NCBI RefSeq assembly: GCF_017308075.1
Contig: NZ_JAFKFX010000024.1
Span: 372,001-436,000 of the forward strand
Reading direction: 5' to 3'
Source of the DNA: Allobosea sp.
GTDB lineage: Bacteria; Pseudomonadota; Alphaproteobacteria; Rhizobiales; Beijerinckiaceae
DNA length: 64,000 nt
The notes beneath the pieces are model-generated. The model saw only the letters and a list, made by a program, of their open reading frames with translations, had not been told where the DNA came from and searched no databases. The number at the start of each line of letters is the position of its first letter. Within the stretch, counting starts at the first letter, position 1. This document shows positions 11,568 to 53,708 of this stretch, piece after piece. The position numbers and the translations under genes are program-made.

Positions 11568-11584
11568 GGTCGCCTCCGCCTCGC

Positions 11585-14382: not shown

Positions 14383-14497
14383 GGTCTTCCTCCCGATTAA
14401 CTTCAAGTCGGCGGTCGAAGACTGAGGGTTGAGACTATGACTCTCAGCATCCGCTGCGTCAATGTCGTACCCGGCCACAAGCCACGAGGTTTCGTTG

Positions 14498-16360
14498 ATG
14501 CCAAGCGAACTTCGACAGTCAAAAAGACTTGCTTCCTTTACAACCCCATTGGGGAAAGACTTTTTTTCACTTATCAAGTTTGAAGCGCGCGAAGCTCTGA
14601 GCGAACTATTCGCCTATCAGGTCGAGGCGACGAGCACGACTGCGAACGCCGACCTGCAAAGCATCATAGGCGAGAAATGCTCGGTCAAGATGACCTTGAA
14701 GAACGGTCAGGACCGCGTCTTCAACGGTGTTCTCGTCGATGCGCAATGGCTCGGCCGCGAGAACGACATCGACAGCTATCGTTTCGTCCTGCGGCCCTGG
14801 CTCTGGCTGCTCTCACAGCGCGCAGATTGCCGGATCTTCAAGAACAAGACGCCGCTCGACATCGTCAAGACGATCTTCGGCAAGGAGGACAAGGCGAGCT
14901 TCGACGACCGCGTCAGCGACAAGCCGGGCGAGATCGATTACTGCGTGCAGTATCGCGAGACCGATCTCGACTTCGTGCTCAGGCTGCTCGAGAAGCACGG
15001 GATCTACTATTACTTCAAGCATACGGATGGCGACCACAAGCTGATCCTCTCCGATGCCCGCTCCTCGCACGACTCCGTCACCGCGGCGGCCGAACCCACC
15101 TTCGCCGGCGCCGGCAGCGCCTACCCGTTCATGCCCAGGGATGGCCAGCAGCGCCGCCCGATCGAGCACATCACGCAATGGTCGACGCTGCGCCGCCTGC
15201 GCACCGGCAAGATCGAGCTCAAGGACTATGATTTCGAGAAATCCACCGCCGACCTGACCGCCAAGGCCGAGGAAGGCTTCGCCCGCAGCAAGGCTTATGA
15301 GAGCTACGACTATCCCGGTGCCTATCTGGATCGCGGCAAGGGTGAGCGCTTCGCCAAGGTGCTGGCGCAGGCCGAACAGGCGCAGGATGATCGCCGCCAG
15401 GCCATGGGCGAGGCACCGAGCCTGCATCCGGGCTCGGTGATGACCCTCGGCGTCCACCCGGTCGGTTCCGAGAACGCCGAATATCTGGTGGTGCGCGCCA
15501 CGCATAATTTCGGAGTTCAGAGCTATCGCTCCGCCAAGCGCGTCGACGACGCGATCTATCACGGCTCCTACGAGCTCCTGAAAGCCGACAAGCGCTTCCG
15601 CGCGCCGCTCGTCACCCCTTCTCCGGTGATCGTCGGACCTGACACCGCCAGGGTGGTCGGCGAAAAGAACAAGGGTGAGGAAGGCGATATCGACGTCGAC
15701 AAATACGGCCGGGTCTGGCTGCGCTTCCACTGGGACCGGGAGAAGGACTCGACCTCCTGCCGCGTCCGCGTCGGACAGCTCTGGTCCGGCAAGAACTGGG
15801 GCGGACAGATCATCCCACGCATCGGCCAGGAGGTCATCGTCGAATTCATCGAGGGCGATCCCGACCGCCCGCTGATCACCGGCGCCGTCGTCAACGACCA
15901 GCACATGCCGCCCTATGACCTGCCGGCCAACAAGACCCAGTCGGGGCTGAAATCGGAATCCACCGAAGGCTCAGGCAAGGCTGGCAGATTCAACGAAATC
16001 AAGTTCGAGGACCTCGCCGGCAAGGAGGTCTTCAGCCTGCAGGCGCAGAAGGACCACAAGACCGTGGTCTTCAACACCGAGACCCGCGATGTCGGCAAGG
16101 AGTTCGAGGGCGGCCCGACCGACTTCACCCGCACCACCCAGATCATGGGCGGCAGCGACAAGCTGCACGTCAAGGACGGAAAGCGTTATGTCGAGGCGGC
16201 GCTCGAGATCAAGCTGGTCTGCGGCGAGAGCACCATCACCATGACGCCGACCGACATCACCATCTCGTCGCCGACCATCAAGGTCACCAGCACCCTCAAG
16301 ACCGAGGTCCACGCCGACGCGACCACCATCGTCACCGGCGGCATCGTCAAGATCAATTGA
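14498..16360 (+). CDS. vgrG: T6SS spike protein VgrG (TssI)
   Basis: A 620-residue protein with a gp27-like half (LFAYQVEATS, the block YCVQYRETDLDFVLRLLEKHGIYYYF) and a gp5-like half (GRVWLRFHWDRE, CRVRVGQLWSGKNWGGQIIPRIGQEVIVEFIEGDPDRPLI cut into family blocks) followed by a short beta-helix tail. No extra effector domain follows the spike, so toxins must ride on PAAR, Hcp or adaptors. I prefer the ATG at 14498 (MPSELRQS), preceded by ACGAGG; an in-frame ATG at 14462 lacks a ribosome site. The first 100 bases are AT-richer than the neighbourhood. Confidence 0.95.
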   Translation: MPSELRQSKRLASFTTPLGKDFFSLIKFEAREALSELFAYQVEATSTTANADLQSIIGEKCSVKMTLKNGQDRVFNGVLVDAQWLGRENDIDSYRFVLRPWLWLLSQRADCRIFKNKTPLDIVKTIFGKEDKASFDDRVSDKPGEIDYCVQYRETDLDFVLRLLEKHGIYYYFKHTDGDHKLILSDARSSHDSVTAAAEPTFAGAGSAYPFMPRDGQQRRPIEHITQWSTLRRLRTGKIELKDYDFEKSTADLTAKAEEGFARSKAYESYDYPGAYLDRGKGERFAKVLAQAEQAQDDRRQAMGEAPSLHPGSVMTLGVHPVGSENAEYLVVRATHNFGVQSYRSAKRVDDAIYHGSYELLKADKRFRAPLVTPSPVIVGPDTARVVGEKNKGEEGDIDVDKYGRVWLRFHWDREKDSTSCRVRVGQLWSGKNWGGQIIPRIGQEVIVEFIEGDPDRPLITGAVVNDQHMPPYDLPANKTQSGLKSESTEGSGKAGRFNEIKFEDLAGKEVFSLQAQKDHKTVVFNTETRDVGKEFEGGPTDFTRTTQIMGGSDKLHVKDGKRYVEAALEIKLVCGESTITMTPTDITISSPTIKVTSTLKTEVHADATTIVTGGIVKIN

Positions 16361-16988: not shown

Positions 16989-18368
16989 ATGGCGCTGACG
17001 CTGACGATCGAGAACGAGACCTCGCTGCCCGATGGCGGCCCGCTCAGCGTGACGCTCAGTGGCGGACGGGGCCTCGATATCGGGCGTGACCAGCATCTCG
17101 ACTGGGCCCTGCCCGATCCGACGCGCACCATCTCCGGCCGCCATTGCGAGATTCGCTTCCACGACAACGCCTATTGGCTGCGTGACATCTCGACCAACGG
17201 CACCTTCGTCAACGGCGCGGCCCATCGGGTGCAGTCGCCCTATCGCCTGCAGCATGGCGACCGGCTCGAAATCGGCCACTACATCATCGCCGTGGCGATC
17301 GACGATGCCGGCCGGCAACCGGCGGCCATGGCCGAGCGGCCGCCGGCCCCGCCGCCCCCGGCTGAATCGCTCTGGGACGGCAATGGCGACGAGGCGCCAC
17401 CGATCGCGCGCCGCGACCTGATGCCGCCGCAGAAATACCGGCCGGTCCATGCCGGCTTCATCGACTGGGCCGCCGATATCCCGACGCCGGAGGAAACCGG
17501 GCGGCAGGCCTTCGCGCCGCAGCCTGAGCCGCCGGCCACTGCCGCTCCGCCCGCGCCTTCGCGCCAGGACGAGATGGCCTGGGCGCCCTATCAGCCGCCG
17601 CCCGTCCCGGCGGCCGCCCCCATCGCCCCGATCCCGACACCTCGCCGGCCGCCGGGTCCGCTCCCGGCCGCCGATCCGTGGAGCGAGGCGCCGCCGGCAG
17701 GGCCGCTGCCCTCCTTCGAGCCGCCCTTCCCGCCGCCTGCGCCGCCGCGTCCGCCACCACCCTCGGCAGCCGCGACCGCCGGCGAGATCTCCCCGGCCGA
17801 GTTCATGGCCCGCTTTGCGCGCGGCGCCGGCCTGCCGGTCGAAGCCCTGTCCTGGCAGGATCCCGGCGCTTTCGCCGAGCAGACCGGCGCGCTGATGCGT
17901 CTCGTCGCCGTCGAGCTGAAGCAGTTGCTGGCGGCGCGGGCCGAGAGCAAGCGCATCGCCCGCAGCGCCAATCAGACGATGATTCAGGCGCAGGACAACA
18001 ACCCGCTGAAATTCTCGCCGACCATCGAGGATGCGCTCAGGCTGATCCTGGGCCGCCCGACCAGCGGCTATCTCAACGCCCAGAAGGCGTTCGAGGAGAG
18101 CTTCAGGGATCTCAAGGCCCACCAGATCAAGACCTATTCGGCGATGCAGCACGCGTTGCGCATGCTGGTCGAGGATCTCGATCCGCAGGCTGTTTCCGAA
18201 AGCCTCGGCTCGGAGCGCGGCCTCGAAGGCCTGCTCTCGTCGCGCAAGGGCAGGCTCTGGGACGCCTATGTCGCGCGCTGGGAGGCCAAGACCGCCCCTT
18301 ACGAGGATGGGCTGGTCGACGCCTTCATGCTCTACTTCGCCGAATGCTATGACCGCGGCGGCCGTTGA
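16989..18368 (+). CDS. tagH: T6SS-associated FHA protein TagH
   Basis: A 459-residue protein. The N-terminal forkhead-associated domain (about 20-100) has the phosphothreonine-binding pattern GRD...RTISGRHCEI and NGTFVNG. A long proline-rich linker spans about 115-260. The C-terminal T6SS FHA domain (about 265-459) includes ISPAEFMARFARGAGL and NNPLKFSPTIEDALRLIL, which define TagH. It is expected to bind a protein phosphorylated by PpkA and promote assembly; PpkA and its opposing phosphatase PppA are encoded downstream. It follows the VgrG pair by 63 bases. Confidence 0.93.
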   Translation: MALTLTIENETSLPDGGPLSVTLSGGRGLDIGRDQHLDWALPDPTRTISGRHCEIRFHDNAYWLRDISTNGTFVNGAAHRVQSPYRLQHGDRLEIGHYIIAVAIDDAGRQPAAMAERPPAPPPPAESLWDGNGDEAPPIARRDLMPPQKYRPVHAGFIDWAADIPTPEETGRQAFAPQPEPPATAAPPAPSRQDEMAWAPYQPPPVPAAAPIAPIPTPRRPPGPLPAADPWSEAPPAGPLPSFEPPFPPPAPPRPPPPSAAATAGEISPAEFMARFARGAGLPVEALSWQDPGAFAEQTGALMRLVAVELKQLLAARAESKRIARSANQTMIQAQDNNPLKFSPTIEDALRLILGRPTSGYLNAQKAFEESFRDLKAHQIKTYSAMQHALRMLVEDLDPQAVSESLGSERGLEGLLSSRKGRLWDAYVARWEAKTAPYEDGLVDAFMLYFAECYDRGGR

Positions 18369-19871: not shown

Positions 19872-21209
19872 ATGTCGTGGTACAGCAAGGTTGTCTGGTC
19901 CGAAGGCCTGTTCCTGCGACCGCACCATCTGCAGCAGAGCGACCGCTACCTCGAAAACCTGCTGGAAAGCCGCGTCAGGCACACCACGCCCTATCCATGG
20001 GGGTTTTCGGTGCTGGAGATCGACCGCGACCTCGCCCAGCAGAGCCGCATCGGCCTGCGCCGCGCCGTCGGCGTACTGCCGGACGGGACCCCCTTCGCCG
20101 TGCCGGACAACGCGCCGCTGCCGCCGGCGATCGAGGTGCCGGAGAATGCCGCCGGACAGATCGCCTGGCTCTCCCTGCCGCTCGCTTCCGCCAACACGCG
20201 CGAGGTCGAGGACAGCCTGAGCGGCAGCGCCAGCCGCTTCATCCCGGCGACCGAGATGCTGATCGACTCCACCGCATCGCTGCGGATCGAGGAGGAGATC
20301 GACATCGCCCATCCGCGCCTTTCGCTCGAACTGCGCAAGACCGCCAAGCCCGGCTATGTCGGCCTCGCCCTCGGCCGCATCCTGGAAGTGCGCGATCGCG
20401 CCGTCCTGTTCGACGAAAAATTCGCGCCGCCGCTCCTGATCTGCTCGGCCCACCCGGTCGTCGACGGCTGGATGGACCGGGTCATCGGCTGGATCGACAA
20501 CAAGCTGGAGGAACTCGCCCGCTACGCCGCCGACCCGACCGCGGGCGGCGGCCTGCAAAGCGCCGACTACTTCATCCTGCAGATGCTCAACCGGCACATC
20601 CCGGTGCTGAAGCACATGCGCGGCTCGCGCTTCGTGCATCCGGAACGGCTGTTCGTGACGCTGCTCGCCATCGCCGGCGAACTCGCCACCTTCACCACCG
20701 CCGAGCGCCGCGCCCGCGACTATCCCGCCTATGATCATGACGATCTCGAGGGTTGCTTCACCCCGGTCGTGCGCGACATCCAGGATTTTCTCTCGGCCCA
20801 GCTCGGCCGCCGCGCCATCCGCCTCGAAATCGTCGAGCGCGCGCCCAACGCCTTCATGTCGACGATCCGCGATCGCGCCCTGGTGCGCAATGCGACGCTG
20901 ATCCTCGAAGTCGCGGCGCGCCGGCCGCTGACCGAGATCCAGGCGCAGTTCCCGCATCTGTTCAAGGTCGGCCCCAACACCAAGATGAACGAGATCGTCC
21001 ATGCCCATCTGCCGGGCATCAATCTCGTCCATCTGCCGACGCCGCCGCCGCAGATCCGGGCGCTGACCGACCACGTCTATTTCTATCTCGACCGCACCTC
21101 GCCGCTCTGGCCGGAGTTCAGCACGGCGAGTTCGATCGGCATGCATTTCTCCGGTGACTGGCCCGATCTCGAAATGGAGCTCTGGGCCGTGCTCGAGGGC
21201 AGAAGATGA
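19872..21209 (+). CDS. tssK: T6SS baseplate-membrane connector TssK
   Basis: A 445-residue protein recognised by the highly conserved N-terminus (KVVWSEGLFLRPHHLQQSDRYLE), the middle block HPERLFVTLLAIAGELATF and the C-terminal PGINLVHLPTPPPQIR. TssK trimers join the baseplate to TssL and TssM. The ATG has GAGAACCGG upstream. Its stop overlaps the ATG of tssL (ATGA), and it begins the tightly packed unit tssK-tssL-tssM-tagF-pppA-ppkA. Confidence 0.96.
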   Translation: MSWYSKVVWSEGLFLRPHHLQQSDRYLENLLESRVRHTTPYPWGFSVLEIDRDLAQQSRIGLRRAVGVLPDGTPFAVPDNAPLPPAIEVPENAAGQIAWLSLPLASANTREVEDSLSGSASRFIPATEMLIDSTASLRIEEEIDIAHPRLSLELRKTAKPGYVGLALGRILEVRDRAVLFDEKFAPPLLICSAHPVVDGWMDRVIGWIDNKLEELARYAADPTAGGGLQSADYFILQMLNRHIPVLKHMRGSRFVHPERLFVTLLAIAGELATFTTAERRARDYPAYDHDDLEGCFTPVVRDIQDFLSAQLGRRAIRLEIVERAPNAFMSTIRDRALVRNATLILEVAARRPLTEIQAQFPHLFKVGPNTKMNEIVHAHLPGINLVHLPTPPPQIRALTDHVYFYLDRTSPLWPEFSTASSIGMHFSGDWPDLEMELWAVLEGRR

Positions 21210-22684
21210 GCGACAAGGGTTCGCCCTCCGACCCGTTCGGACGCTCGGACCGGACGATCATCAAGCCGAACCCCGCGGGAAGGCGGGCGCCGCCACCCTC
21301 GCGCCCCGACCCGCAGCCCGTCAGGCCTGGCTACCCCGTGCCCCCGGCCTCGCCCCATGGCTATGGCCCGTCGACCGCGCCGCAATATCCATCCGGCGCG
21401 GCCGGCTCCCCGGGCGTGCCCGGCACCGGCGAGGAATGGCTCTCGGCGCCGCCGCCCCGGCCCAGCGCGGCATCGCCGCCCGGCCATATCCCGCAGGCCC
21501 TGCCGCGGCGCGAACAGATGCTCACGCCCAATGCCAATCCGATGCTCAAGGCGGCCGGCCCGCTTCTCCTGCTGCTCGGGCGCCTGCGCGCCTCGCTGAG
21601 CAGCGCCCCGGCCACCCAGATGATCGGCCAGGTCGGCGAGACGATCGAGGCCTTCGAGCACGAGGTCCGGGCCGCCGGCGCCTCGCCCGAGCAGACGCGC
21701 ACCGCCAAATACATCCTCTGCGCCTTCGCCGACGACATCGTCCAGAACATCCCCGGCGAGGATCGCCATGTCTGGACACAGTACAGCATGCTCTCGCGCT
21801 TCTTCGGCGAACGCACCGGCGGCGTGCGCTTCTTCGAGGAGCTGGAGCGCGCCAAGCGGGACCCGTCGGTCAATTACGACCTGCTCGAATTGATGCATGC
21901 CTGCCTGGCACTCGGCTTCGAGGGCATCCACCGCACCTCGGCCGGCGGCGCCGCCAATCTGCAGATGATCCAGCGCAGCCTTTTCGAGACGCTGCGGCGG
22001 GTGAAGCAACCCGATCCGGAATTGTCGCCGCGCTGGCAAGGGCAGGCGCTGGTCTCGCGTCTGGCCGGGTTCAGGATCCCGGTCTGGTCGGTCGCCGCCG
22101 TCGCCGCCGTCGCGGTGCTCGGCCTCTATTTCATCTTCCGGGCCCTGCTCGGCGGCAATGCCGAGGCCTCGGCCTCCGCCTTGCTCGCCGTCCATCCCAA
22201 GGGCGAGCTTTCGATTGTCCGGAAAGTCTTCGCCAAACCGCCGCCGCCATTACCGCCGCCGGCGCAGCAGCCCAAGATCTGCGCCACGGTGCGCCCGCCG
22301 ATCACCTGCCAGGTCACGCCCAATCTGATCATCGTCCGGCTCGTCGACATCACCCTGTTCGAGCCCGGGCAGGCGGTGGTGCGCGACGAGTTCCGCCCGC
22401 TGATCGAGCGCATCGCCGCAGTGCTGAACGAGGAAGGCGGGGCGATCAAGGTCGTCGGCCACACCGACAGCCAGCCGATCCGCACCGCGCGCTTCCCCTC
22501 CAACCAGCAATTGTCGCTGGAGCGCGCCAAGGCCGTCGGCGAGCTCCTCAAGACCAGGCTGAACCGGAAGGAGCGGATCAGCATCGAGGGCAAGGGCCCC
22601 GACGCGCCGATCGCCAGCAATGCCACGCCTGAAGGACGCGCCAAGAACCGCCGGGTCGAGATCCTGATCCAGCGCGAAAGCTAG
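21206..22684 (+). CDS. tssL: T6SS inner-membrane protein TssL (DotU/IcmH) with OmpA domain
   Basis: A 492-residue protein. A proline-rich cytoplasmic lead (1-110) precedes the DotU/IcmH domain (about 110-280; CAFADDIVQNIP, WTQYSMLSRFFGERTGGVRFF), one membrane segment near 293-315, and a periplasmic OmpA-like domain (about 370-492; KVVGHTDSQPI, RAKNRRVEILI). This extended TssL can bind peptidoglycan itself. With TssM it forms the membrane complex. Its start overlaps tssK and it is followed by tssM after 48 bases. Confidence 0.95.
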   Translation: MSDKGSPSDPFGRSDRTIIKPNPAGRRAPPPSRPDPQPVRPGYPVPPASPHGYGPSTAPQYPSGAAGSPGVPGTGEEWLSAPPPRPSAASPPGHIPQALPRREQMLTPNANPMLKAAGPLLLLLGRLRASLSSAPATQMIGQVGETIEAFEHEVRAAGASPEQTRTAKYILCAFADDIVQNIPGEDRHVWTQYSMLSRFFGERTGGVRFFEELERAKRDPSVNYDLLELMHACLALGFEGIHRTSAGGAANLQMIQRSLFETLRRVKQPDPELSPRWQGQALVSRLAGFRIPVWSVAAVAAVAVLGLYFIFRALLGGNAEASASALLAVHPKGELSIVRKVFAKPPPPLPPPAQQPKICATVRPPITCQVTPNLIIVRLVDITLFEPGQAVVRDEFRPLIERIAAVLNEEGGAIKVVGHTDSQPIRTARFPSNQQLSLERAKAVGELLKTRLNRKERISIEGKGPDAPIASNATPEGRAKNRRVEILIQRES

Positions 22685-22732: not shown

Positions 22733-25700
22733 ATGAGCGTCGCGATCTGGCTCAGGATCGTCGCAATCGCAGTGGGCACGCTGGCGCTCGCCCTGCTGAT
22801 CTGGTTCGGCGGCCCCTTCGTCGCGATCGGCGAAGTGCGTCCGTTCGAGCCGCTCTTCGTGCGCCTGCCGCTCGTCCTGCTTCTCGCGATCGGCGCCGGC
22901 GTCTGGATCGCCATGATCCTCATCCGGCGGCGCAAGGCAGTGGCTGCGCTGAGCGAGGCGCTGGCCAAGGAGGAGAGCGCGGCCGGCGATGGCCCGGCGC
23001 TCGGCTCGGCGATGCGCGATGCGCTCGCGACGCTGAAGCGGGCTCGCGGCAAGGATGGCGGCGACTATCTCTACGACCTGCCCTGGTATGTGATGATCGG
23101 CCCGCCCGGCGCCGGCAAGACGACGGCGCTGGTCAATTCCGGCCTGAAATTCCCGCTGGCGCGCGGCGGCCAGGCCCCGGCGGCGGTCGCCGGCAATGGC
23201 GGTACGCGCTATTGCGACTGGTGGTTCGCCGAGGAAGCGGTGCTGATCGACACCGCCGGGCGCTACACCACCCAGGACACCGACGCCAAGGCCGAACGCG
23301 CGGGCTGGCTCGCCTTCCTCGACCTGTTGAAGCACAACCGCCCGCGTCAGCCGATCAACGGCGTCATGGTCGCGATCAGCGTCGAGGATCTGCTGACCTC
23401 GACGCCCGAACAGGTTGCCGCCCATGCCGAGGCGATCCGCGCCCGCCTGCTCGAGCTGAACGAGCGCCTGAAGATCGATTTCCCGGTCTATGCGGTCTTC
23501 ACCAAGGCCGATCTGATCGCCGGCTTCAACGAGTTCTTCGGCGGGCTCTCCGAGCCGCAGCGCCGCATGGTCTGGGGCCACACCTTCCAGACCCTCGACA
23601 AGACCCGCAACATGATCGGCGACGTTCCACCGGAGTTCGACGCGCTGATCGAGCGCCTGAACCAGCGCCTCTCCGACCGCCTGCAGGACGAGCCCAACCC
23701 GACCGCACGCGCCCAGCTCTTCGGCCTGCCGAGCCAGATGGCGGCGCTGAAGCCGATCATGGTCGACTTCCTCGGCCGCGTCTTCGAACCGACGCGCTAC
23801 CAGCAGAGCGCGACGCTGCGCGGCTTCTACTTCACTTCGGGCACACAGGAAGGCACGCCGATCGACCAGTTGATCGGCGCGCTCTCGCGCAATTTCGGCA
23901 GCGAGCATGCCGGCGCCGGCAGCTTCTCGGGCCGTGGCAAGAGCTATTTCCTGACCGATCTGATCCAGAAGGTGATCATCGGCGAGTCCGGCTGGGTCTC
24001 GACCGATCTGCGCGCCATCAGGCGCTCGGCCCTGTTGCGTGCCGCCGGCTTCACCGCGGTGGCGCTCGCCGCAGTGACCCTCACCGGACTGTGGTGGACG
24101 AGCTATGCGCGCAACAGCGAGCTGATCAACCAGACCAATTACGCCCTTGCCGACTACCGTTCGAACGCCGCCCCGGTGCTGCAGGAAACGACGATCTCGG
24201 AACGGAATTTCAGCCTTGTCCTGCCGCTGCTGCACAAATTGCGGCACATGCCGGCCGGCTACGCCAACAAGGACGAGCCGACCCCCATCGCCGCGACCTT
24301 CGGTCTGAGCCAGCGCGAGCGCCTGCAATCGGCGACACAGATCAGCTATCAGGAGGCGCTGGAGCGGATGCTGCGCTCGCGCATCATCTTCCGGCTCGAA
24401 GAGCAGCTCGAGGCCAATGCCAACAATCCCGGCTTCCTCTACGAGGCGCTCAAGGTCTATCTGATGATCGGCGGCCGGGCGAAGCTCGACCGCGATCTCG
24501 TCCTCGCCTGGATGCGGCTCGACTGGGCCGAGAACCTGTTCCCGGGCGCCGCCAACGCCAAGGGCCGCGAGGCGCTGGAAGAGCATCTCACCGCGCTGCT
24601 CGATCTCGACGAGGGCGCCGAGCCGCTGGTCAAGCTCAACCAGACGCTGATCGAGAGCAGCCAGCAGACACTGCGGCGGATGAGCATCGCCGAGCGCGCC
24701 TATGAGTTGCTGCGCACGCAAGGGCGCAACGCCAACCGCGACTGGGTCGCGGCGCAGCGCGGCGGCTCGGATGTCCGGCTCGTCTTCGAGGGGGTCTCAG
24801 GCGAGGATCTCGATACGATCCGGGTGCCCTATTTCTACACCTATGACGGTTTCCAGAACGCCTTCGTCGACCGTCTCGGCGATATCGGCGAGCGTATCGA
24901 GAAGGAGCGCTGGGTCCTCGGCGAGAATGTCGACCAGGCCGCGATCAATTCGCAATATTCCAGTCTTTTCCAAGATCTTATGAAGCTTTATTCACGCGAT
25001 TTCATAGCGTCGTGGCAGCGCGCGCTGCGCCGGTTGAAGCTGCGCCCGCTCAATGCCGACAAGCCGAAATACGTGGCGCTCTCGGCGATCGCCGCGCCGA
25101 CCTCGCCCTTCAAGCAAGTGCTGGAATCGGTTCGCGACGAGACGCAGCTGACCAAGGAGCGCGCCGCCCGCCGACCGACCGCCGCGCAGGCGGCGGCGCA
25201 AGCCGGCAAGGAGGCCGCAGCCAAGACGCTGGAGGAGCGGGCCAATGCGGCGCTCGGCCGACTCGGCACTTCCCTGCCGCTGAGCGCGCCGGGCGTCGAC
25301 CGGGTGCTCTCGGCCGGCAGCGAGGCGCTCGGCGCCAATATCGAGGCCGGCTTCAAACAATACCATGTCCTGGTCGACGGCGATCTCGGCCGCCGGCCGG
25401 TCGACCAGGCGCTGCAGATCTTCGCCGAGATCAACCAGAACCTCGCCATGGCGGCGACCACCCCGGCCCAGTCGGCGGCGGCGAACGCGGCGATGGTGCC
25501 ATTGATCGCCTCGCTGCGCGGCAACTCCTCGCGCTACCCTGCCCCGTTCGATGCGATGATCGTCTCGGCGGTCAATGATTTCGAGGGCGACGCCACCAGC
25601 GCCACCATCTCTCTGCTGCGCCAGGCGCTCGGCGACGAGGTCAGCCGCACCTGCACCAATCTTCTCGCCAATCGCTACCCCTTCACCAAGGGCAGCACCC

Positions 25701-26380
25701 GCGACATCGCCCTCTCCGACTTCGCGCAGCTCTTCGCGCCCGGCACCGGCGCCATGGACAAGTTCCTGAAGGAGCGGCTCGACCCCTATATCGACAAGTC
25801 CGGCGCGCAATGGAGCTGGCGCGCCGACAGCCGCGTCGCCCGCTCGCTCTCGCCGACGACCTTGCGCGAATTCCAGCGCGCCAGCGACATTCGTGAAGCC
25901 TTCTTCCCGACCGGCGGCAACCTGCCCTCCTTCCAGATGGTGGCGGTCCCAACCGCCCTGTCCTCCGACGCTTCGGGCGCCAAGCTCGAGATCAACGGCT
26001 TCACAGTGGCGAGCCAGCAGGGCGTCAACACGCCGACCCCGGTGATGTGGCCGGGCGCCGGGCTGGCGCGGACCTCGATCACCCTGACGCTCGGTGGCGG
26101 CGCCGGCAGCAACAATGCCGGCGGCATCTTCGGTGGCGGCTTCTTCTCGAACAGTCCGACCCCGGCCGCGCCGAGCGAGGTCAAGCTGTTCGAGCGCGAT
26201 GGCGTCTGGTCGTTCTTCCGGCTGCTCGATGCCGGCTCGGTGCTGCGCCAGGGCGACAATGTCGTGTTCACGCTCGCCTCCGGCGGCCGACAGGTCGGCT
26301 ACCAGTTCGGCGTCGGCTCGCTGAAGAACCCGCTGGTGCTGCCGGCGCTGCGCGAAATCCGCTGTCCGACGGGGATTTGA
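22733..26380 (+). CDS. tssM: T6SS membrane core protein TssM (IcmF)
   Basis: A 1215-residue protein. Two membrane segments lie in the first 65 residues, then a cytoplasmic NTPase-like domain with a full Walker A (GPPGAGKTT, near residue 123) and the conserved CDWWFAEEAVLIDTAGRY. A third membrane segment lies near residue 440 (LLRAAGFTAVALAAVTLTGLWW), followed by the long periplasmic IcmF-related and DUF1215-like region to the C-terminus. The retained Walker A suggests nucleotide binding. It spans the inner membrane and forms the channel with TssL. Confidence 0.96.
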   Translation: MSVAIWLRIVAIAVGTLALALLIWFGGPFVAIGEVRPFEPLFVRLPLVLLLAIGAGVWIAMILIRRRKAVAALSEALAKEESAAGDGPALGSAMRDALATLKRARGKDGGDYLYDLPWYVMIGPPGAGKTTALVNSGLKFPLARGGQAPAAVAGNGGTRYCDWWFAEEAVLIDTAGRYTTQDTDAKAERAGWLAFLDLLKHNRPRQPINGVMVAISVEDLLTSTPEQVAAHAEAIRARLLELNERLKIDFPVYAVFTKADLIAGFNEFFGGLSEPQRRMVWGHTFQTLDKTRNMIGDVPPEFDALIERLNQRLSDRLQDEPNPTARAQLFGLPSQMAALKPIMVDFLGRVFEPTRYQQSATLRGFYFTSGTQEGTPIDQLIGALSRNFGSEHAGAGSFSGRGKSYFLTDLIQKVIIGESGWVSTDLRAIRRSALLRAAGFTAVALAAVTLTGLWWTSYARNSELINQTNYALADYRSNAAPVLQETTISERNFSLVLPLLHKLRHMPAGYANKDEPTPIAATFGLSQRERLQSATQISYQEALERMLRSRIIFRLEEQLEANANNPGFLYEALKVYLMIGGRAKLDRDLVLAWMRLDWAENLFPGAANAKGREALEEHLTALLDLDEGAEPLVKLNQTLIESSQQTLRRMSIAERAYELLRTQGRNANRDWVAAQRGGSDVRLVFEGVSGEDLDTIRVPYFYTYDGFQNAFVDRLGDIGERIEKERWVLGENVDQAAINSQYSSLFQDLMKLYSRDFIASWQRALRRLKLRPLNADKPKYVALSAIAAPTSPFKQVLESVRDETQLTKERAARRPTAAQAAAQAGKEAAAKTLEERANAALGRLGTSLPLSAPGVDRVLSAGSEALGANIEAGFKQYHVLVDGDLGRRPVDQALQIFAEINQNLAMAATTPAQSAAANAAMVPLIASLRGNSSRYPAPFDAMIVSAVNDFEGDATSATISLLRQALGDEVSRTCTNLLANRYPFTKGSTRDIALSDFAQLFAPGTGAMDKFLKERLDPYIDKSGAQWSWRADSRVARSLSPTTLREFQRASDIREAFFPTGGNLPSFQMVAVPTALSSDASGAKLEINGFTVASQQGVNTPTPVMWPGAGLARTSITLTLGGGAGSNNAGGIFGGGFFSNSPTPAAPSEVKLFERDGVWSFFRLLDAGSVLRQGDNVVFTLASGGRQVGYQFGVGSLKNPLVLPALREIRCPTGI

Positions 26381-26383
26381 GCC

Positions 26384-27088
26384 ATGGCGTGCGGGCTGTT
26401 CGGAAAACTGCCGGGCAAGCGCGACTTCATCGCCCTGGGGGCGCCCACGGCCTTTCTCTCGGTCTACGAGCCCTGGCTCCAGGGCGGGCTGACCGCGAGC
26501 CGGCTCGATCTCGGCGCCGGCTGGCAGGACGCCTTCCTCAACGCGCCGATCTGGCGCTTCTGGCTCGGCTCGGCCTATGGCGGCAACACCGTCGCCGGGG
26601 CCTTCATGCCCTCGGTCGACGGCATCGGCCGCTATTTCCCGCTCACGGTCTTCGCGGTCGCGGGTCCGGGCACGGCGATCCCGCCGCCCGAGACCGACCC
26701 GCAGGATGCCTGGTTCGACCACGCCGAGGATTTCCTGCTGAATGCGCTGGAGCCCGAAGCGAGCTTCGAGGCCGTTGCCGAGGCATTGGCCCGGTTGCCG
26801 GTTCCGAACGACGAGCTGAAGGCCGCCCCGCCGGCCGACATGGTCAGGCTGTCCGACGGCACGATCGTCAGCGCGCTCGACCCGGCGACCTTCCCGGCCC
26901 GCCTGGCGGCACTGCGGGTCGAGGACCATACGCGCTCCTATGCCCATGCCTGCTATCTCTGGACCGTCGGCGGCGAGAATTTCGAGCCGCTCGCCTTGGT
27001 CGGCCAGGCTCTGCCGAGCCCTTATCTGTTCAGCGGCCTGCTGACCGGCCGCTTCGACGCCTTTCTCGGTGCGGGAGCAGCGTCATGA
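26384..27088 (+). CDS. tagF: T6SS post-translational regulator TagF
   Basis: A 234-residue protein with the TagF signature at its N-terminus (GLFGKLPGKRDFI, then PWLQGGL) and the blocks PIWRFWLGS and PSVDGIGRYFPLTVFA. TagF represses T6SS firing after translation, by acting on the FHA protein in systems where it has been studied. It starts 3 bases after tssM and its stop overlaps the pppA start (ATGA), so it is co-expressed with the kinase and phosphatase. Confidence 0.93.
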   Translation: MACGLFGKLPGKRDFIALGAPTAFLSVYEPWLQGGLTASRLDLGAGWQDAFLNAPIWRFWLGSAYGGNTVAGAFMPSVDGIGRYFPLTVFAVAGPGTAIPPPETDPQDAWFDHAEDFLLNALEPEASFEAVAEALARLPVPNDELKAAPPADMVRLSDGTIVSALDPATFPARLAALRVEDHTRSYAHACYLWTVGGENFEPLALVGQALPSPYLFSGLLTGRFDAFLGAGAAS

Positions 27089-27879
27089 ACCATGCCGGCC
27101 CAGCCCCTCCCTTCGAGACCGGCGCGATCAGCCATCCAGGCCGTGTGCGCAGCCATAACGAGGACAATCTCGTGACGCGGCCCGAATTCGGGCTCTGGGC
27201 CGTCGCCGACGGCATGGGAGGACACGAGAACGGCGCCATGGCGAGCGCGACGGTCGCCGCCGCGCTCGACGGCATCGGCCCCGCCATCTCAGCCGCCGAC
27301 CTTCTGGCACGGCTGGAACGGAGCGTGCTCGCCGCCAATGCCGAGCTGCGCCGCCGGGCCCACGAACAGGCGGGCGCGACCATGGGCTCGACCCTCGCCG
27401 TACTGCTGGTTCACGGCAGTCATTTCGCCTGCCTCTGGTCGGGCGACAGCCGAATCTACCTCGTCCGCCACGGCTACATCACCCAGATCTCGCGCGACCA
27501 TACCGAGGTGCAGGACATGATGGATCGCGGCCTGCTCAGCGCCGAGGAGGCGCGCAACTGGCCGCGCCGGCATGTGATCACCCGCGCCATCGGCGTGCAC
27601 GATCTGCCCTCCCTCGACATCGACCATGGCGAACTCGAAGGCGGCGACACCTTCGTGCTCTGCTCCGACGGCCTGACCGGACATGTCGAGGATGACGAGA
27701 TCCTGCGCGCCGCATCCGGCGCTGATGCCCAGGGCGCTTGCGACGCACTGCTCGCGCTGACGCTGGAGCGCGGCGCGACCGATAATGTCACCGTCGTGAT
27801 TGTCCGCTATCATCAGGATCGCCGCGTACAGACGCGCTGGATGCCGAACATGCGTCAGCCGAAGAACGAGGCCACATGA
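27085..27879 (+). CDS. pppA: T6SS PP2C-type phosphatase PppA
   Basis: A 264-residue serine/threonine phosphatase of the PP2C family. The metal-binding and catalytic motifs are intact: VRSHNEDN at the start, VADGMGGH, WSGDSRIYLVR, LCSDGLTGHV and GATDNVTVVIV. It should reverse the PpkA-dependent phosphorylation that switches the T6SS on. The ATG overlaps the tagF stop and its own stop overlaps the ppkA ATG; the open frame extends upstream of 27085 only as an out-of-register reading of tssM and tagF. Confidence 0.94.
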   Translation: MNHAGPAPPFETGAISHPGRVRSHNEDNLVTRPEFGLWAVADGMGGHENGAMASATVAAALDGIGPAISAADLLARLERSVLAANAELRRRAHEQAGATMGSTLAVLLVHGSHFACLWSGDSRIYLVRHGYITQISRDHTEVQDMMDRGLLSAEEARNWPRRHVITRAIGVHDLPSLDIDHGELEGGDTFVLCSDGLTGHVEDDEILRAASGADAQGACDALLALTLERGATDNVTVVIVRYHQDRRVQTRWMPNMRQPKNEAT

Positions 27880-29921
27880 CCGATTCCGAGCGCACGATCA
27901 TCATGCCGCGCAACGGGCTTTCGGTCGGCACGCGGCTGAACGGCATCTATGAGATCGAGCGCCTGATCGCGGTCGGCGGCATGGGCGAAATCTACAAGGG
28001 CCGCGCCATCCAGACCGGCGACGCGGTGGCGATCAAGATGGTCCGCCCCGACATGGCGCAGGACGAGGCGGTCGTCACCCTGTTCCGCAAGGAAGCGGCG
28101 GCGCTGCACAATGTCTACAACGAGGCGATCGTCCGCTATTACGTCTTCACCGTCGATCCCGCGACGCAGGCGACCTATCTCGCCATGGAGTTCGTCGACG
28201 GGCAGTCGCTGTCGGAGCGGCTCAGGCAGGGAGCGCTGCCACCGGAGGAGGTCGACCTGCTGCGCCGGCGCATCGCCAGCGGCCTGCATGCCGCGCATAT
28301 GCTGGGGATCACCCATCGCGACGTCTCGCCCGACAACATCATCCTGCCCGGCGGCCAGGTCGCGCGCGCCAAGATCATCGATTTCGGCATCGCCAAGTCC
28401 AGCCTGCTGGGCGAAAAGACCGTCATCGGCACCGGTTTCGCCGGCAAATACAACTATGTCTCGCCCGAGCAGCTCGGCCTGTTCGGCGGCGAGGTCACCG
28501 GCAGATCGGACATTTACAGCCTCGGCCTCGTCCTCGCCGAGGCACTTGGCGGCCGGCCCCTAGACATGGGCGGCACCCAGATGCAGATTCTGGAGAAACG
28601 TCGGCGCGTGCCGGACCTAGCCGCGGTCGACAAGAGCCTGCGGCCGCTGCTGGCCCGCATGCTGGCGCCCGACCCCAAGGATCGGCCCGCCGATATGGCG
28701 GAGGTCGCGTCCTGGCAGCTGAAGGGGCAGCGGAATGCCGCCGGCGGTGTCGGAGGCGGCAGCCTTGCCTGGAAGGCGCTCGCCGGTGCGGCCGCCTTCG
28801 CCGTGCTCGCCGTTGGCGGCTTCCTCGCCTGGCAGCTGCTCGGACAAGGCGGCCGCCCGCCGACAGCCCCTGACCCGCCCGTGCTCGCCGGCCGCAGCGA
28901 TGCGCCTCCCGCGCCGAGCCTGCAAGGCGTGGCTCCGGAACCGCAACAGACTAGCCCGAACGAAACGGCAGCGTCCCCGCAGCCGCCAGCCGGCAGCTTC
29001 GCCTCCGAGCGCCAGCAGCCGCAGCAACCGCCCTCGCAGCGCCCGCCAGCCCCCGCCTCCAACCCGGCGCCCACGCCTGCGCCCGCGGCACCGTCTCAAA
29101 CTACGGCGCGAGCGGAAGCTCCGCCGACTCTGGGCCCGCCACCGGCAGCCCAGATCCAGGTCCCGCCTCCGGCCCGGTTGCCGCCGGTCGCCATTCCTCC
29201 TCTCACCTTTCCCCCTGCCGCCACCCCGCCGGCCGCGGAGAACAAGACGGCGACCAATATGGTCGACCAGCCCCCCGCAGAACGCGAGCCGCGCACGCCG
29301 GCGGAACGCATCGAGCGCTATATCGCGACCTACGATGGCGGCGCCTGCTTCTTCCTCTGGCCGACCTCGGTCGGCGACAGGCGCGCCGCGATCGAAGGCT
29401 TCGGCAGTTCCGCGCCGCCCTTCGTCGCCTTCGACGGCGCTTTCAAGCGGGCGCAGGGCTTCGAGGCGCAGATCAGCCTCCGGTCGATCACCACGGCGCA
29501 ATGTCCGATGGTCGATTTCCTGCGTCAGCTCGGGCGCGGCATAGATCGCAGCCCTGTCATGCAGATCGGCGCCTTCACCATGAAGAGCGGCGACACGCTG
29601 AGCGGCACGGTCGAGAGCGATCCGAAGCAGAACCTCGCTGTCCTGCTCGTCGGCGATGACGGGCTTGTCTACAACCTCGCCAGCTTCACGCGCCGCGAGG
29701 GCGGCAAGGCGAGCTTCACCCTCAAGCTCGAATCGACGGCTGCTTCAGGCGCTCCGGTCCGTCCGCAAGCCGTCATCGCCCTTGTCAGCCAGGCGCCGCT
29801 GCCTTCGCTCGCTGGGCCCAATCCAGCGCCGGCCGGTGACGTTTTCCCGAGCTTGCGGCAAGATGTTTCGCGCCTCGGCGGCAGGATCGGCGTCGGCATC
29901 AAATATTTCAGGATCGAGTGA
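27876..29921 (+). CDS. ppkA: T6SS serine/threonine kinase PpkA
   Basis: A 681-residue membrane kinase. The kinase domain (about 22-285) has the ATP-binding glycine loop (AVGGMGEIYKG), Lys54 in VAIKM, the catalytic loop HRDVSPDN (Asp149) and DFG (169-171). A membrane segment near 300-325 is followed by a Pro/Gln/Ala-rich periplasmic linker and a folded C-terminal domain from about residue 475, which has a CFFLWPTS motif and conserved Cys residues. It is expected to sense an envelope signal and phosphorylate the FHA partner. It ends the plus-strand core operon. Confidence 0.93.
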   Translation: MTDSERTIIMPRNGLSVGTRLNGIYEIERLIAVGGMGEIYKGRAIQTGDAVAIKMVRPDMAQDEAVVTLFRKEAAALHNVYNEAIVRYYVFTVDPATQATYLAMEFVDGQSLSERLRQGALPPEEVDLLRRRIASGLHAAHMLGITHRDVSPDNIILPGGQVARAKIIDFGIAKSSLLGEKTVIGTGFAGKYNYVSPEQLGLFGGEVTGRSDIYSLGLVLAEALGGRPLDMGGTQMQILEKRRRVPDLAAVDKSLRPLLARMLAPDPKDRPADMAEVASWQLKGQRNAAGGVGGGSLAWKALAGAAAFAVLAVGGFLAWQLLGQGGRPPTAPDPPVLAGRSDAPPAPSLQGVAPEPQQTSPNETAASPQPPAGSFASERQQPQQPPSQRPPAPASNPAPTPAPAAPSQTTARAEAPPTLGPPPAAQIQVPPPARLPPVAIPPLTFPPAATPPAAENKTATNMVDQPPAEREPRTPAERIERYIATYDGGACFFLWPTSVGDRRAAIEGFGSSAPPFVAFDGAFKRAQGFEAQISLRSITTAQCPMVDFLRQLGRGIDRSPVMQIGAFTMKSGDTLSGTVESDPKQNLAVLLVGDDGLVYNLASFTRREGGKASFTLKLESTAASGAPVRPQAVIALVSQAPLPSLAGPNPAPAGDVFPSLRQDVSRLGGRIGVGIKYFRIE

Positions 29922-30006: not shown

Positions 30007-31656
30007 CTAGCGTGATGGGCTCCGCGCCGGAGCCGGCGGGGCGGCACCGCCGCGCACCACCTTGTAGCGGTCGAGGCGCACCTTGATCATCTCGTTGAAC
30101 TTCTTGTGCACCTCCGAGACCGAGAGCGTCTTGGTCTCGCCGCCGGCCTCGGCATAGAAGATCGGCCGGTTGGCCTGCGCCGGACGCGGCAGCAACTCGG
30201 CCGCGCTGGCGCCGGGCGTCTCCTCCATGGTCTCGATGAAGGTCTGCGCCGCATCCGGGCCGAGGAAGTGGATCAGGTAGATCTCGCCGCCGGTGAGGTG
30301 GCGCCCCATCGCCTTCTCCAGTCGCAGCGTGTCACGCTTCAGCATCTCGGCGGCGAGCAGGGCCGAGAGATAGGGCTCGCGCCTGAGGTCGAGGATGCGC
30401 TGACGCTCATTGGCGTCGGCGACCACGAATTGCCGGCCATTGCGCGTGACCAGCGCAGCCTCGGCCATCATGCCGTGCTTGCGGCCGAACTCGAAGACGA
30501 CGCCGAGCCAGGTCTGCTCGATGAACTGGTAGAGCCCGGTCGCCGAGGAGGTCTTCGCCTGGACCGTGGTCGAGAATGAGGATTCCTTGTCGGCGACCGC
30601 CATCAGCAGGGTCGGGTCCGCCCCGACGACCCGCCCCGCCCGCACGATGATGTCGACCAGATGCCGGCGGATGCGGATCGGCCCGAAGGTCAGGATCTGG
30701 TCGGGATCGCCGCCAATGGTGATCGGCGCCCGCGGCAATTGCTGGCGCGGCACGGCTGCCGGAGCCGGCACGGCACCGGGCCTGGCAGGCAGCTTCGGCG
30801 GCACCAGCAGGATGTTCGAAGGCGGCAGCACCGGCAGCGGCAAAGCCGGCACCTGCGGCGATGCCCCGGAGGCTTCGTCCGCCGACTGTTCGGTCAGAGC
30901 CGCCAGCGAGGGATCGTTGCTGAGCGCAAACTGCGTCGCCTGCCGCGCCGCTTCAAGATCGCCCTCGACCGAGGACAGGATCAGCGAGGGGCGCATCGGC
31001 GCCTGCAGCGAAGGCGCGTCGACCGTCTCGGCGGGCGCGAAATCGGGATCGGGAGCCGGCGCCGGAACTGGTGTCAGCGTCGCAACCGCCACGCCCGCCA
31101 TCACTGCCACGACGACGCTCCCGGCGCCCGCCAGCGCCAGCAGCCGGGTCCGGCCTGCGCCATCCGCCGAAATCGCCGCGCCCTGCGACGCTTTACGCGG
31201 CAAGGCACTCCGCGCGGCGCCCGCAATGCCCGGCGCCGGGACCAGGCCGGCGCCGCCCGCCACTGCCTTGTGGGCGGCCGCGAACCAGCCGGCCCCGTCC
31301 TTGGCGGCGGCTTCGAGCTCTCCGACCATCCGGCGGGCTTGCTCGCTCGAGATGCCCGCCTCGCGTTCCAGCGTCGCCGCCGCCTTGGGCCCCTGCTCCG
31401 CCAGCAGCCTGATCGCGAAGAACCAGAGCTGCAGCGAGGTCCGGCGGCTCTCCAGCGGCGTCCCGGCACAGGGCGAGACCAGGAAATTGCAGTGCCCGCA
31501 GGCATAGGCACGCAGCTTGAGCCGCGGCACGAAGGCGGAAACCCGGCCGCAGGCGGGACAGGCGATATTGATGCCGCCCCGGCTCGCCTGCATCATCGCC
31601 TCGAGGCAGGCATCCTCCCGGAACGCGGCCTGGAACTGCTTGAAGCGCTGGCTCAT
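30007..31656 (-). CDS. IS1595-type zinc ribbon / membrane / lytic transglycosylase fusion
   Basis: A 549-residue protein with an unusual make-up. Residues 15-115 look like the N-terminal zinc ribbon and helix region of IS1595-family transposases: CPAC (33-36) and CGHC (53-56), then GTPLESRRTSLQLWFFAI and a helix-turn-helix-like GISSEQARRMVGEL. A membrane segment lies near 172-193, then a long Pro/Ala linker. Residues about 335-480 form an SLT-type lytic transglycosylase domain (ADPTLLMAVADKESSF, with the candidate catalytic Glu359; SATGLYQFIEQTWLG). No DDE catalytic core of a transposase is present. This predicts a cytoplasmic zinc domain tied to a periplasmic wall-cutting enzyme, possibly clearing peptidoglycan for T6SS assembly. 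It is convergent with ppkA. Confidence 0.85.
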   Translation of the reverse strand: MSQRFKQFQAAFREDACLEAMMQASRGGINIACPACGRVSAFVPRLKLRAYACGHCNFLVSPCAGTPLESRRTSLQLWFFAIRLLAEQGPKAAATLEREAGISSEQARRMVGELEAAAKDGAGWFAAAHKAVAGGAGLVPAPGIAGAARSALPRKASQGAAISADGAGRTRLLALAGAGSVVVAVMAGVAVATLTPVPAPAPDPDFAPAETVDAPSLQAPMRPSLILSSVEGDLEAARQATQFALSNDPSLAALTEQSADEASGASPQVPALPLPVLPPSNILLVPPKLPARPGAVPAPAAVPRQQLPRAPITIGGDPDQILTFGPIRIRRHLVDIIVRAGRVVGADPTLLMAVADKESSFSTTVQAKTSSATGLYQFIEQTWLGVVFEFGRKHGMMAEAALVTRNGRQFVVADANERQRILDLRREPYLSALLAAEMLKRDTLRLEKAMGRHLTGGEIYLIHFLGPDAAQTFIETMEETPGASAAELLPRPAQANRPIFYAEAGGETKTLSVSEVHKKFNEMIKVRLDRYKVVRGGAAPPAPARSPSR

Positions 31657-31765: not shown

Positions 31766-33313
31766 TCAGCCCGCCAGCAGGCCGAGCCGGGCGACGTCGC
31801 GCAGATGCATTTCGACCTCCTCCGCCGTCGCGCGCCGGGGGAGGTCCGCAGCGTCACGCCCCGCAGCATGCGCCTCGGCCAGGAAGGCGTTCATCTCGGC
31901 CAGCAGCATCGGCACCGTCCGGGTGCCGTCGAGCAGGCTGACGAATTGGCGCACCACGACGCCATCCAGCGCCACGGCGCGGTGGCGCAGATCGGTGACC
32001 TCGTTGCCGGCCAGCGCCTGCCGCCGCGCCAGCAGGCTCGCCACCGGCCGCTCGCCGACGGTCGTGGTAAGCCGGTGCGGCTCCAGGCTGATCTCCAGCA
32101 GGCCGGCCCGGTAGATCGCCGTCAGCGCCTCGTTGAGCCGGCCGGTCTCGCGCTCGATGTCGGGACCGAGGCTGTCCCTGGCCTCGTCCAGAGCGCTCGC
32201 GACGAGCTCGGCATGGCCGATGCTGCCGGGCCAGGCCTGGCCGAGCACCCGCAAGGCGGCCTTTGCGCTTTCGAGGTCGACGGCAAGCCGAACGTCGCTA
32301 CCGAACAGGAACCCGCCGACGCCGGGCCTGTCGTCCTGTTCCTCGGCCTCGCGGACATTCGCGGCGAGATGATAAGGGGCGAGCGTAAAGCGTGAGAAGC
32401 CGCGCCGGAGCACGATATCCGAGCGACAGAGCAGCGTCTGGCGGAAGCAGCGCCCGATCAGAAGGTCGAGCGATTGCTCCTGGCGCAGCGGCTCGTCGAC
32501 CGGGATCGCGTTCAGGATCTGCTGGGCCGGCCCCTGCGCCCCGCCGAAATTATTGGGGAACGAGGCCTCGGCGAGGAATTGCAGCCCATGCGGTGCGGCG
32601 GCGTCCAGCACCTCGTGCAGGGCGAACGCCCGGGCTCCGGGGTTGAGATCGTCATGATAGAGGACGTTGTCCGGAATCTCGTCGATCTGTTGCAGGCGCT
32701 CGCGCAAGGCGGCGCCGTAGAACGAGCCAGGGTCGGTCGCCTCGGCGAAGCGCTTGATCGCGGCCCGCGCCACCCTGACCCGCTCCAGCGGCTCCTCGAT
32801 GTCGCGGGTCTCGTAGAGCATGACGTCTCGGGCGAGATCGCGCAGCCGGCAGCCCGGCAGGGCATTGTAACTGACATAGGCGATGCCCTGCGGCCGCAGC
32901 AATTCGCCGAACAGCGCCAGGATGCGCTCGCGCACGAAGGGCGGCACCCAGGAATAGACGCCGTGGACCAGGATATAGTCGAAGCTGCCGAGCCCGGCAT
33001 CCGCCGCCATGATGTCGAGATGGTGGAACGCGATGTTGCGCAGCCCGAGCTCGTCGGCTTCGGCCTTGGCTCGCGCGATGGCGCTGGCGCTGAGGTCGAT
33101 GCCGATGAAGCTGGCGCCCGGCGATTGCAGCGCCATCGGGATCAGGTTGCCGCCGCTGCCGCAGCCGAGTTCCAGCACGCGCATCGCCGCAGTCGGTGCC
33201 GGGCTCATGCCGTGGAAATGCGCGATCGTCGCCAGATGCCCGGGATGGGTCTGCGAGAAGGCATGGCCGGGATAGGCGACGGCGTCATAGGGATTGGACT
33301 TGCTCGCGCTCAT
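31766..33313 (-). CDS. SAM-dependent methyltransferase with regulatory domain
   Basis: A 515-residue protein. The N-terminal class I methyltransferase domain (about 40-200) has motif I VLELGCGSGGNL, the acidic FIGIDLS, and FDYILVHGVYSWVP. The middle (about 210-300) fits the methyltransferase regulatory domain (GARAFALHEV, FLAEASFPNN), followed by a C-terminal domain with a winged-helix-like tail. The real start is the ATG at 33313. The methylated substrate is unknown. It lies between the transglycosylase fusion and the TPR-OmpA gene, all on the same strand with gaps near 45-110 bases, so an operon is likely. Confidence 0.85.
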   Translation of the reverse strand: MSASKSNPYDAVAYPGHAFSQTHPGHLATIAHFHGMSPAPTAAMRVLELGCGSGGNLIPMALQSPGASFIGIDLSASAIARAKAEADELGLRNIAFHHLDIMAADAGLGSFDYILVHGVYSWVPPFVRERILALFGELLRPQGIAYVSYNALPGCRLRDLARDVMLYETRDIEEPLERVRVARAAIKRFAEATDPGSFYGAALRERLQQIDEIPDNVLYHDDLNPGARAFALHEVLDAAAPHGLQFLAEASFPNNFGGAQGPAQQILNAIPVDEPLRQEQSLDLLIGRCFRQTLLCRSDIVLRRGFSRFTLAPYHLAANVREAEEQDDRPGVGGFLFGSDVRLAVDLESAKAALRVLGQAWPGSIGHAELVASALDEARDSLGPDIERETGRLNEALTAIYRAGLLEISLEPHRLTTTVGERPVASLLARRQALAGNEVTDLRHRAVALDGVVVRQFVSLLDGTRTVPMLLAEMNAFLAEAHAAGRDAADLPRRATAEEVEMHLRDVARLGLLAG

Positions 33314-33356
33314 CAAGGCAATCCATCCGCCACGCTCGCATCCCGCCTGGTCACGC

Positions 33357-34595: not shown

Positions 34596-34633
34596 CCAGT
34601 TTGCTCCACCATCGCCGCTCCGCGGGCGTCAGC

Positions 34634-36172: not shown

Positions 36173-36314
36173 GGCACCATTCCCTGCGTCAACCTAAAGA
36201 AAGACGCGTCAAAAATCCAGACCTGCCCCTTGTCGCCACCCGCACTCTGCTTGCCCCTGCGACTGGGGCCTGATAGCTTTTTTCCTCCATGCCGCGCCCT
36301 CGGGAAGAGCGCCG

Positions 36315-38047: not shown

Positions 38048-38096
38048 AGCTTCACGCCCGTGACGGCGCGGGCGGCCTGTCGGAGTGCTGAACCGC

Positions 38097-53610: not shown

Positions 53611-53708
53611 ATCGCCGTTCAGGCGAGGTTTCTGCCGGCAGCTTTGCGATTGATTAACCCTAACGGGCTCTAATCGGAACCATCGCAGCGTCACAGTCGG
53701 TATTGCGT

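Follow-up and report, generated by a model that had tools for sequence, protein, structure and literature searches.

Locus and architecture of ZnLT

The DNA analysed here (the window) is a 64,000-nucleotide stretch of Allobosea sp. (contig NZ_JAFKFX010000024.1, positions 372,001 to 436,000) in which genes of a type VI secretion system (T6SS), recognised by matches to TIGR and Pfam families, adjoin an open reading frame (ORF) of 549 codons on the minus strand (znlT, positions 30007-31656, ATG start). Its product is named ZnLT here, for zinc ribbon, transmembrane segment and lytic transglycosylase. An initial annotation, made from the letters of the window, had described this ORF as a transposase-type zinc ribbon with two CxxC pairs (33/36 and 53/56), followed by one membrane segment and an SLT lytic transglycosylase domain, and had suggested that a domesticated DNA- or protein-binding domain might place a wall-cutting enzyme at the T6SS assembly site. 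Each structural element of that description was recovered, with the cysteine pairs at exactly those residues.

In the window protein PF01464 (SLT) matches residues 344-386 above the Pfam cut-off (E 1.4e-5), and the nearest solved structures found with a profile are chains 3bkh and 9xps of the phiKZ endolysin gp144 (E ~1.5e-31, in two matched stretches). E358 of ZnLT stands opposite the ES-motif Glu of gp144, residue 115 of the 260-aa chain as counted from the printed alignment, which we take to be the catalytic Glu of that enzyme; ZnLT is predicted to be muralytic. The two proteins share this transglycosylase domain type; however, gp144 is a phage endolysin of which the transglycosylase part alone matches, and nothing in it corresponds to the ribbon or the membrane span. 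At the other end of ZnLT the PF12760 zinc ribbon stays below the cut-off (14.7 bits vs 25.4; 18.2 bits when residues 1-130 are scanned alone), while PF12760 and PF01464 are both above cut-off in one chain in three of six orthologues scanned (L054 from Chelatococcus, L060 from Microvirga, and L187), the other three (L059, L189 and L195) passing only the SLT cut-off. The four cysteines would bind zinc. The lone hydrophobic stretch at residues ~173-191 is preceded by five K/R to one D/E and followed by none to four, and because of this charge distribution an N-in/C-out topology is predicted, with the ribbon in the cytoplasm and the transglycosylase in the periplasm.

The architecture is recurrent and not peculiar to the window. 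An ORF with both domains, the four Cys and the ES-type Glu was confirmed at 30 of 31 candidate family loci. In a second set 13 of 14 loci have one, four of them in assemblies also present in the first set, giving 43 ORFs from 39 distinct assemblies, and the ES-type Glu is present in all 43. The two candidates that failed verification are frames of 739 and 339 aa, both without an SLT match. The 739-aa frame (L199:9105-11321, minus strand, genome G500) has a weak zinc-ribbon match, and G500 is not among the TssC-positive genomes. A Pfam scan of ZnLT found no VanY-type peptidase domain, a profile of the N-domain found nothing beyond chance among solved structures (best E 0.22), PADLOC returned no match, and plasmid and phage records held none covering 80% of ZnLT, the SLT part alone being matched among the matches listed. 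Residues 8-102 match phrog_25593 (344 positions, unknown function; E 2.3e-7), which suggests that phage-carried relatives of the transposase domain exist.

Table 1. Features of the window, with the evidence for each
Feature	Position	Strand	Basis
znlT (ZnLT), zinc ribbon - transmembrane - lytic transglycosylase	30007..31656	(-)	ORF, ATG start, 549 aa; domains; orthologues
IS1595-type zinc ribbon, residues 14-82, Cys33/36 and Cys53/56	31411..31617	(-)	profile/alignment
eroded helix-turn-helix part of transposase N-terminus, residues 84-120	31297..31407	(-)	residue conservation, charge
single transmembrane segment, residues ~173-191, predicted N-in/C-out	31084..31140	(-)	hydropathy and charge count
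lytic transglycosylase domain, residues 316-535	30052..30711	(-)	PF01464; PDB 3bkh/9xps
E358 codon	30583-30585	(-)	aligned with ES-motif Glu of phiKZ gp144
clpV (tssH)	2919..5606	(-)	TIGR03345
tssC	10065..11588	(-)	TIGR03355
vgrG	14462..16360	(+)	TIGR03361
fha (tagH)	16989..18368	(+)	TIGR03354
tssK	19872..21209	(+)	TIGR03353
tssL with OmpA-type C-terminal domain	21206..22684	(+)	PF09850 and PF00691
tssM	22733..26380	(+)	TIGR03348
tagF	26384..27088	(+)	TIGR03373; PF09867
pppA-like phosphatase	27085..27879	(+)	name presumed from position; conserved between tagF and ppkA
ppkA-like Ser/Thr kinase, convergent with znlT	27876..29921	(+)	PF00069; conserved neighbour; name presumed from position
methyltransferase with regulatory domain, frequent znlT neighbour in Bosea-type loci	31766..33316	(-)	PF13847/PF10119

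On the far side of the methyltransferase gene a block at 33357-39884 encodes an OmpA-type protein, a protein with a caspase domain (PF00656), one with a triple DUF4399 and, as judged by similarity, another caspase-like product; the order of this block is conserved in many Bosea loci.

Association of ZnLT with one T6SS lineage

A verified ZnLT is present in 30 of 298 family genomes, and all 30 are TssC-positive, compared with 69 of the 298 overall; 39 of the 69 TssC-positive genomes are thus without ZnLT. The carriers belong to Bosea, Chelatococcus, Microvirga, Methylobacterium and two more genera, all of one family. In a genus set ZnLT occurs in 25 of 37 genomes, with TssC in every one of the 25 and in 5 of the 12 that have no ZnLT. 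Of its 24 genomes from other families three have TssC, and ZnLT was seen in none. Among 397 order and 385 class genomes there was no two-domain match outside the same family, order-set frames of 401-457 aa being left unopened; two class-set frames longer than 500 aa proved on reading to be transposases. For a stricter comparison, 38 genomes were selected by the presence of a zinc-less SLT relative (37 labelled Methylobacterium, Methylorubrum or Methylobacteriaceae and one Microvirga metagenome-assembled genome (MAG)); the comparison drew on 42 of 80 loci, 38 zinc-less and four ZnLT. TssC is found in 11 of these genomes, and ZnLT in 9 of the 11 and in none of the 27 that are TssC-negative, where the sole further match is a 339-aa frame. 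Fisher tests of co-occurrence, uncorrected for kinship, give p of 2e-22, 3e-7 and 8e-5, the second for this last set. The N-domain searches scored a limited number of candidates per genome (11 in the class, 14 in the family, 10 in the order and 101 in the zinc-less-relative set), and absences are less firm in the first three than in the last. The initial annotation had named two findings that would speak against its idea, and neither was obtained: the architecture is not widespread in genomes with no T6SS, none being found in TssC-negative genomes of the tested sets, and the first domain does not lack a match to zinc ribbons (see below).

On a TssC tree of 74 rows (frames picked by BLAST; rows named after the genome, and after linkage if it carries two systems) one clade of 32 (support 96/88) holds all 26 ZnLT rows, and ZnLT is in none of the other 42; the tree omits G506 (partial), G025, the second copy of tandem TssC genes, some second systems and, of the 30 family genomes with ZnLT, 13. 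Since all ZnLT rows lie within one clade, ZnLT characterises a single T6SS lineage within one family, not T6SS generally. Among the six ZnLT-free rows of the clade, G566 is an incomplete genome in which ppkA runs to the contig end. In G478, which yielded no ZnLT, fha and tssK flank an ORF (L290:5477-7930, minus strand) that combines an M23 peptidase (E 1.6e-24) with a region matching the gp144-like SLT profile (E 8.3e-11). Four Bosea systems without ZnLT (G001, G008, G019 and G032) have M23-like ORFs ~1 kb from tssK (L301:5909-7354, L302:3489-4961, L303:6309-7772 and L304:8929-10383), ~35% identical to the M23 protein at 53703-55037 of the window and with a hydrophobic segment by eye. Other wall enzymes may therefore stand in where ZnLT is absent, although two cases make no rule.

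The ZnLT-type system also appears to lack a recognisable TssJ. PF12790 was not found in the source genome (G000), though many other T6SS genes are there, and 5 of the 25 ZnLT genomes of the genus set have it, always no more than ~7 kb from one of their two TssC genes. For four of these genomes the adjoining TssC is not the one nearer ZnLT, the contigs of the fifth (G031) being uninformative.

Most of the ZnLT loci that were read are linked to a T6SS cluster, and within it the gene most often lies beside the kinase gene that we presume to be ppkA. In 28 of 29 loci (L032-L060; mostly Bosea, with two Chelatococcus, two Microvirga, one Methylobacterium-labelled MAG and some labelled Hyphomicrobiales, Rhizobiales or Beijerinckiaceae) a ppkA relative is, on one side, the nearest window-homologous ORF and is convergent, on the opposite strand; in the exception, L034, fha takes the place of ppkA and vgrG is nearby. 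In the eight Methylobacterium loci that show both genes ZnLT instead lies downstream of ppkA on the same strand, the frames abutting or overlapping within ~70 bases, and the same order is found in genus g338, with a wider gap in L189. No ppkA was seen on the 15.6-kb contig of L188, and the contig of L194 ends before the ppkA position. In both arrangements ZnLT and ppkA stay side by side.

Such proximity, in two gene orders, could mean that ZnLT is mainly a partner or substrate of PpkA that reports the state of the wall or its muropeptides to the kinase pathway, wall cutting for assembly being secondary. In keeping with this, in two in-clade Bosea systems without ZnLT the PpkA ORF has 1095 and 1083 aa (L112:10625-13912 and L115:13459-16710) compared with 681 aa in the window, and carries a very long Ala/Glu/Lys-rich extension; their C-terminus is peptidoglycan-binding-like, by eye only. 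However, an envelope sensor of this kind is unlikely, as the SLT domain is the most constrained part of the protein (dN/dS 0.055 within Bosea) and its ES-type Glu is never missing from the verified ORFs.

Origin and retention of the zinc-ribbon module

A profile of ZnLT residues 1-130 finds ORFs of ~300 aa in Alphaproteobacteria with E values down to 1.5e-41, and the four such transposase-length ORFs scanned all exceed the cut-offs for PF12760, PF12762 and IS1595 NF033547. The first domain therefore matches zinc ribbons, specifically those of IS1595 transposases, with homology over the N-terminal 120 residues; unlike the transposases, none of seven ZnLT scanned has the DDE domain (PF12762). 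Three long-frame matches (L137, L152 and L148) proved on reading to be transposases in extended frames. On a tree of the N-domain (46 ZnLT and 38 transposase rows) ZnLT forms one side of one branch, with support of 99/92 and in 200 of 200 bootstrap trees; one capture can therefore explain all rows, and the module fits a single origin.

Comparison of 46 ZnLT rows with 35 transposase rows (three divergent transposase rows excluded) indicates that the two parts of the module have fared differently. C17, the four ribbon Cys, P62, L75, W78 and A107 (window numbering) are present in 100% of both groups, whereas eleven helix-turn-helix positions conserved in 83-100% of transposases (R89, G91, V92, E95, Q97, Q99, T103, Y104, K105, W108 and R115) are retained in 0-9% of ZnLT; G101, V102, T106 and L84 are retained in 41-65%. 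Mean pairwise identity is 0.56 in the ribbon and 0.37 in the helix-turn-helix part of ZnLT, against 0.53 and 0.68 in the transposases, and for the 14 most diverse rows of each group the corresponding values are 0.44 and 0.28 against 0.50 and 0.60. Net charge in the helix-turn-helix part is -0.04 in ZnLT versus +4.8 in the transposases, and that of the ZnLT ribbon is +3.5. Over the long term the zinc ribbon was thus kept while most of the DNA-binding signature was released. Of the two options that the initial annotation gave for the domain, protein binding is favoured over DNA binding, since the helix-turn-helix part has lost most of its signature together with its charge.

The same comparisons bear on two further interpretations. 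The derivation of the module from a transposase N-terminal region, the positive charge of the ribbon, and the persistence of helix-turn-helix residues R98, A107 and R109 in 91, 100 and 76% of ZnLT rows would suit a membrane-tethered transcription regulator, with an N-domain that has kept its DNA binding and a periplasmic SLT domain acting as wall sensor; CadC and ToxR are regulators of this membrane-tethered type. With the eleven transposase positions nearly gone, and with a helix-turn-helix region that is near neutral and poorly conserved among ZnLT themselves, this is very unlikely. The erosion of the helix-turn-helix part, the existence of zinc-less relatives, and a ribbon dN/dS within Bosea like that of the linker (39 pairs; ribbon 0.21, helix-turn-helix 0.21, linker 0.20) would alternatively fit a neutral remnant, the 5' end of an IS1595 element fused to the gene and left there as a functionless extra domain. 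That is hardly probable for a ribbon that remains 44% identical among the 14 most diverse rows, with all four Cys at 100% and 13 invariant positions in 17 diverse rows.

The zinc-less relatives of Methylobacterium resemble ZnLT in an SLT domain that is 56-61% identical in most rows (~50% over a longer stretch in others) and in one hydrophobic segment in those opened, and differ from it in that no paired CxxC precedes the SLT part at any of 51 loci, no window T6SS homologue lies in the fetched flanks of L061-L111, and they occur in TssC-negative genomes. Nine tested genomes, all TssC-positive, carry both enzymes, which speaks against a simple replacement of ZnLT by the zinc-less form upon loss of the T6SS. 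On an SLT tree of 60 rows (rows more than 95% alike removed) the zinc-less copies of Methylobacterium form a clade (98/97) next to the main ZnLT clade (98/96). Taken with one origin of the zinc domain, this placement suggests that the fusion came early and that, with a duplication, the zinc-less line lost the domain, the base of the tree being unresolved.

A probable dedicated wall-opening enzyme with a cytoplasmic module

The T6SS membrane complex is wider than the pores of the cell wall. ZnLT is probably a dedicated T6SS lytic transglycosylase that opens the producer's own wall, with the ribbon as a cytoplasmic docking or control module. ZnLT would be a single-span inner-membrane protein of one T6SS lineage, whose periplasmic gp144-type domain would cleave the peptidoglycan of the producer itself and let the TssL/TssM complex through. 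The cytoplasmic module, captured from an IS1595 transposase, keeping its ribbon and mostly shedding its DNA-binding signature, would dock on a cytoplasmic component of the T6SS and so hold or license the enzyme at the membrane complex; such docking is proposed because the ribbon persists, the DNA-binding signature is mostly gone and the gene mostly lies beside ppkA. The most likely partner would be PpkA, Fha or the TssL/TssK face. The comparative evidence supports the central idea of the initial annotation, and the module may place the enzyme at the T6SS assembly site. A more specific version is possible but doubtful: a transposase zinc ribbon, captured once, may have been rebuilt as a cytoplasmic licence for wall cutting, such that PpkA, or the PpkA/Fha switch, acts on it across the membrane and the wall is opened only at sites where the T6SS is being authorised.

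Several observations weigh against this assignment. The co-occurrence values take no account of kinship, 6 of the 32 TssC rows in the ZnLT clade have no ZnLT, and G477 carries the gene ~0.9 Mb away from TssC and TagF. The ZnLT rows do not form a single clade on the SLT tree, where the G477 ZnLT and a zinc-less Microvirga copy are unresolved at the base, and the N-domain tree rests on few columns and has long rows (a warning of the tool itself) and an arbitrary root. Three helix-turn-helix residues are kept in most ZnLT rows, and within Bosea the dN/dS values indicate that recent constraint on the ribbon has been no stronger than on the linker.

Dedicated T6SS wall-cutting enzymes are already known; what would be new here is the cytoplasmic half, a transposase-derived module on such an enzyme. 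Literature searches, mostly judged by title, found no description of a T6SS transglycosylase with a transposase-derived cytoplasmic module. In the excerpts of the sources cited here, specialised transglycosylases are called an exception in T6SS clusters, and MltE, a lytic transglycosylase as ZnLT is predicted to be, is used in T6SS assembly and opens the wall for the system of enteroaggregative E. coli (EAEC) (PMC10433429). In Acinetobacter the wall is opened by TagX, an L,D-endopeptidase whose gene, like znlT, belongs to the T6SS cluster. As is predicted for ZnLT, TagX is a peptidoglycan hydrolase anchored in the membrane and enzymatically active on the periplasmic side, but it is of VanY type, not a transglycosylase, and has two transmembrane segments, a zinc-ribbon module not being mentioned in the excerpts of that paper (PMC5061870). 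The hosts are also alike in that Acinetobacter is described, again in excerpt, as without TssJ (PMC10564176), which was not found in the source genome of ZnLT. The same excerpted review describes muralytic T6SS effectors (PMC10433429), and znlT lies in a T6SS cluster, yet injection of ZnLT into rivals to cut their walls is the least credible of the alternatives given its predicted transmembrane segment and cytoplasmic domain, its position mostly with kinase genes and not with vgrG/PAAR (except L034, beside fha and near vgrG), and the occurrence in TssC-negative genomes of a zinc-less relative that has a hydrophobic segment. Of the wall-opening enzymes, MltE has, to our knowledge, no cytoplasmic domain.

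The passage of the wide T6SS membrane complex through the wall of the producer has been explained for few systems. As a cluster-linked, lineage-specific transglycosylase, ZnLT would add a further answer, its built-in cytoplasmic module offering a direct handle on the site and timing of wall cutting, and the nine genomes with both ZnLT and the zinc-less enzyme offer a natural control pair. If licensing by PpkA is true, ZnLT would be a case of inside-out control of a lytic transglycosylase. Judged by residue conservation, ZnLT is also a clear case of a piece of a bacterial transposase reused after most of its DNA-binding signature was lost.
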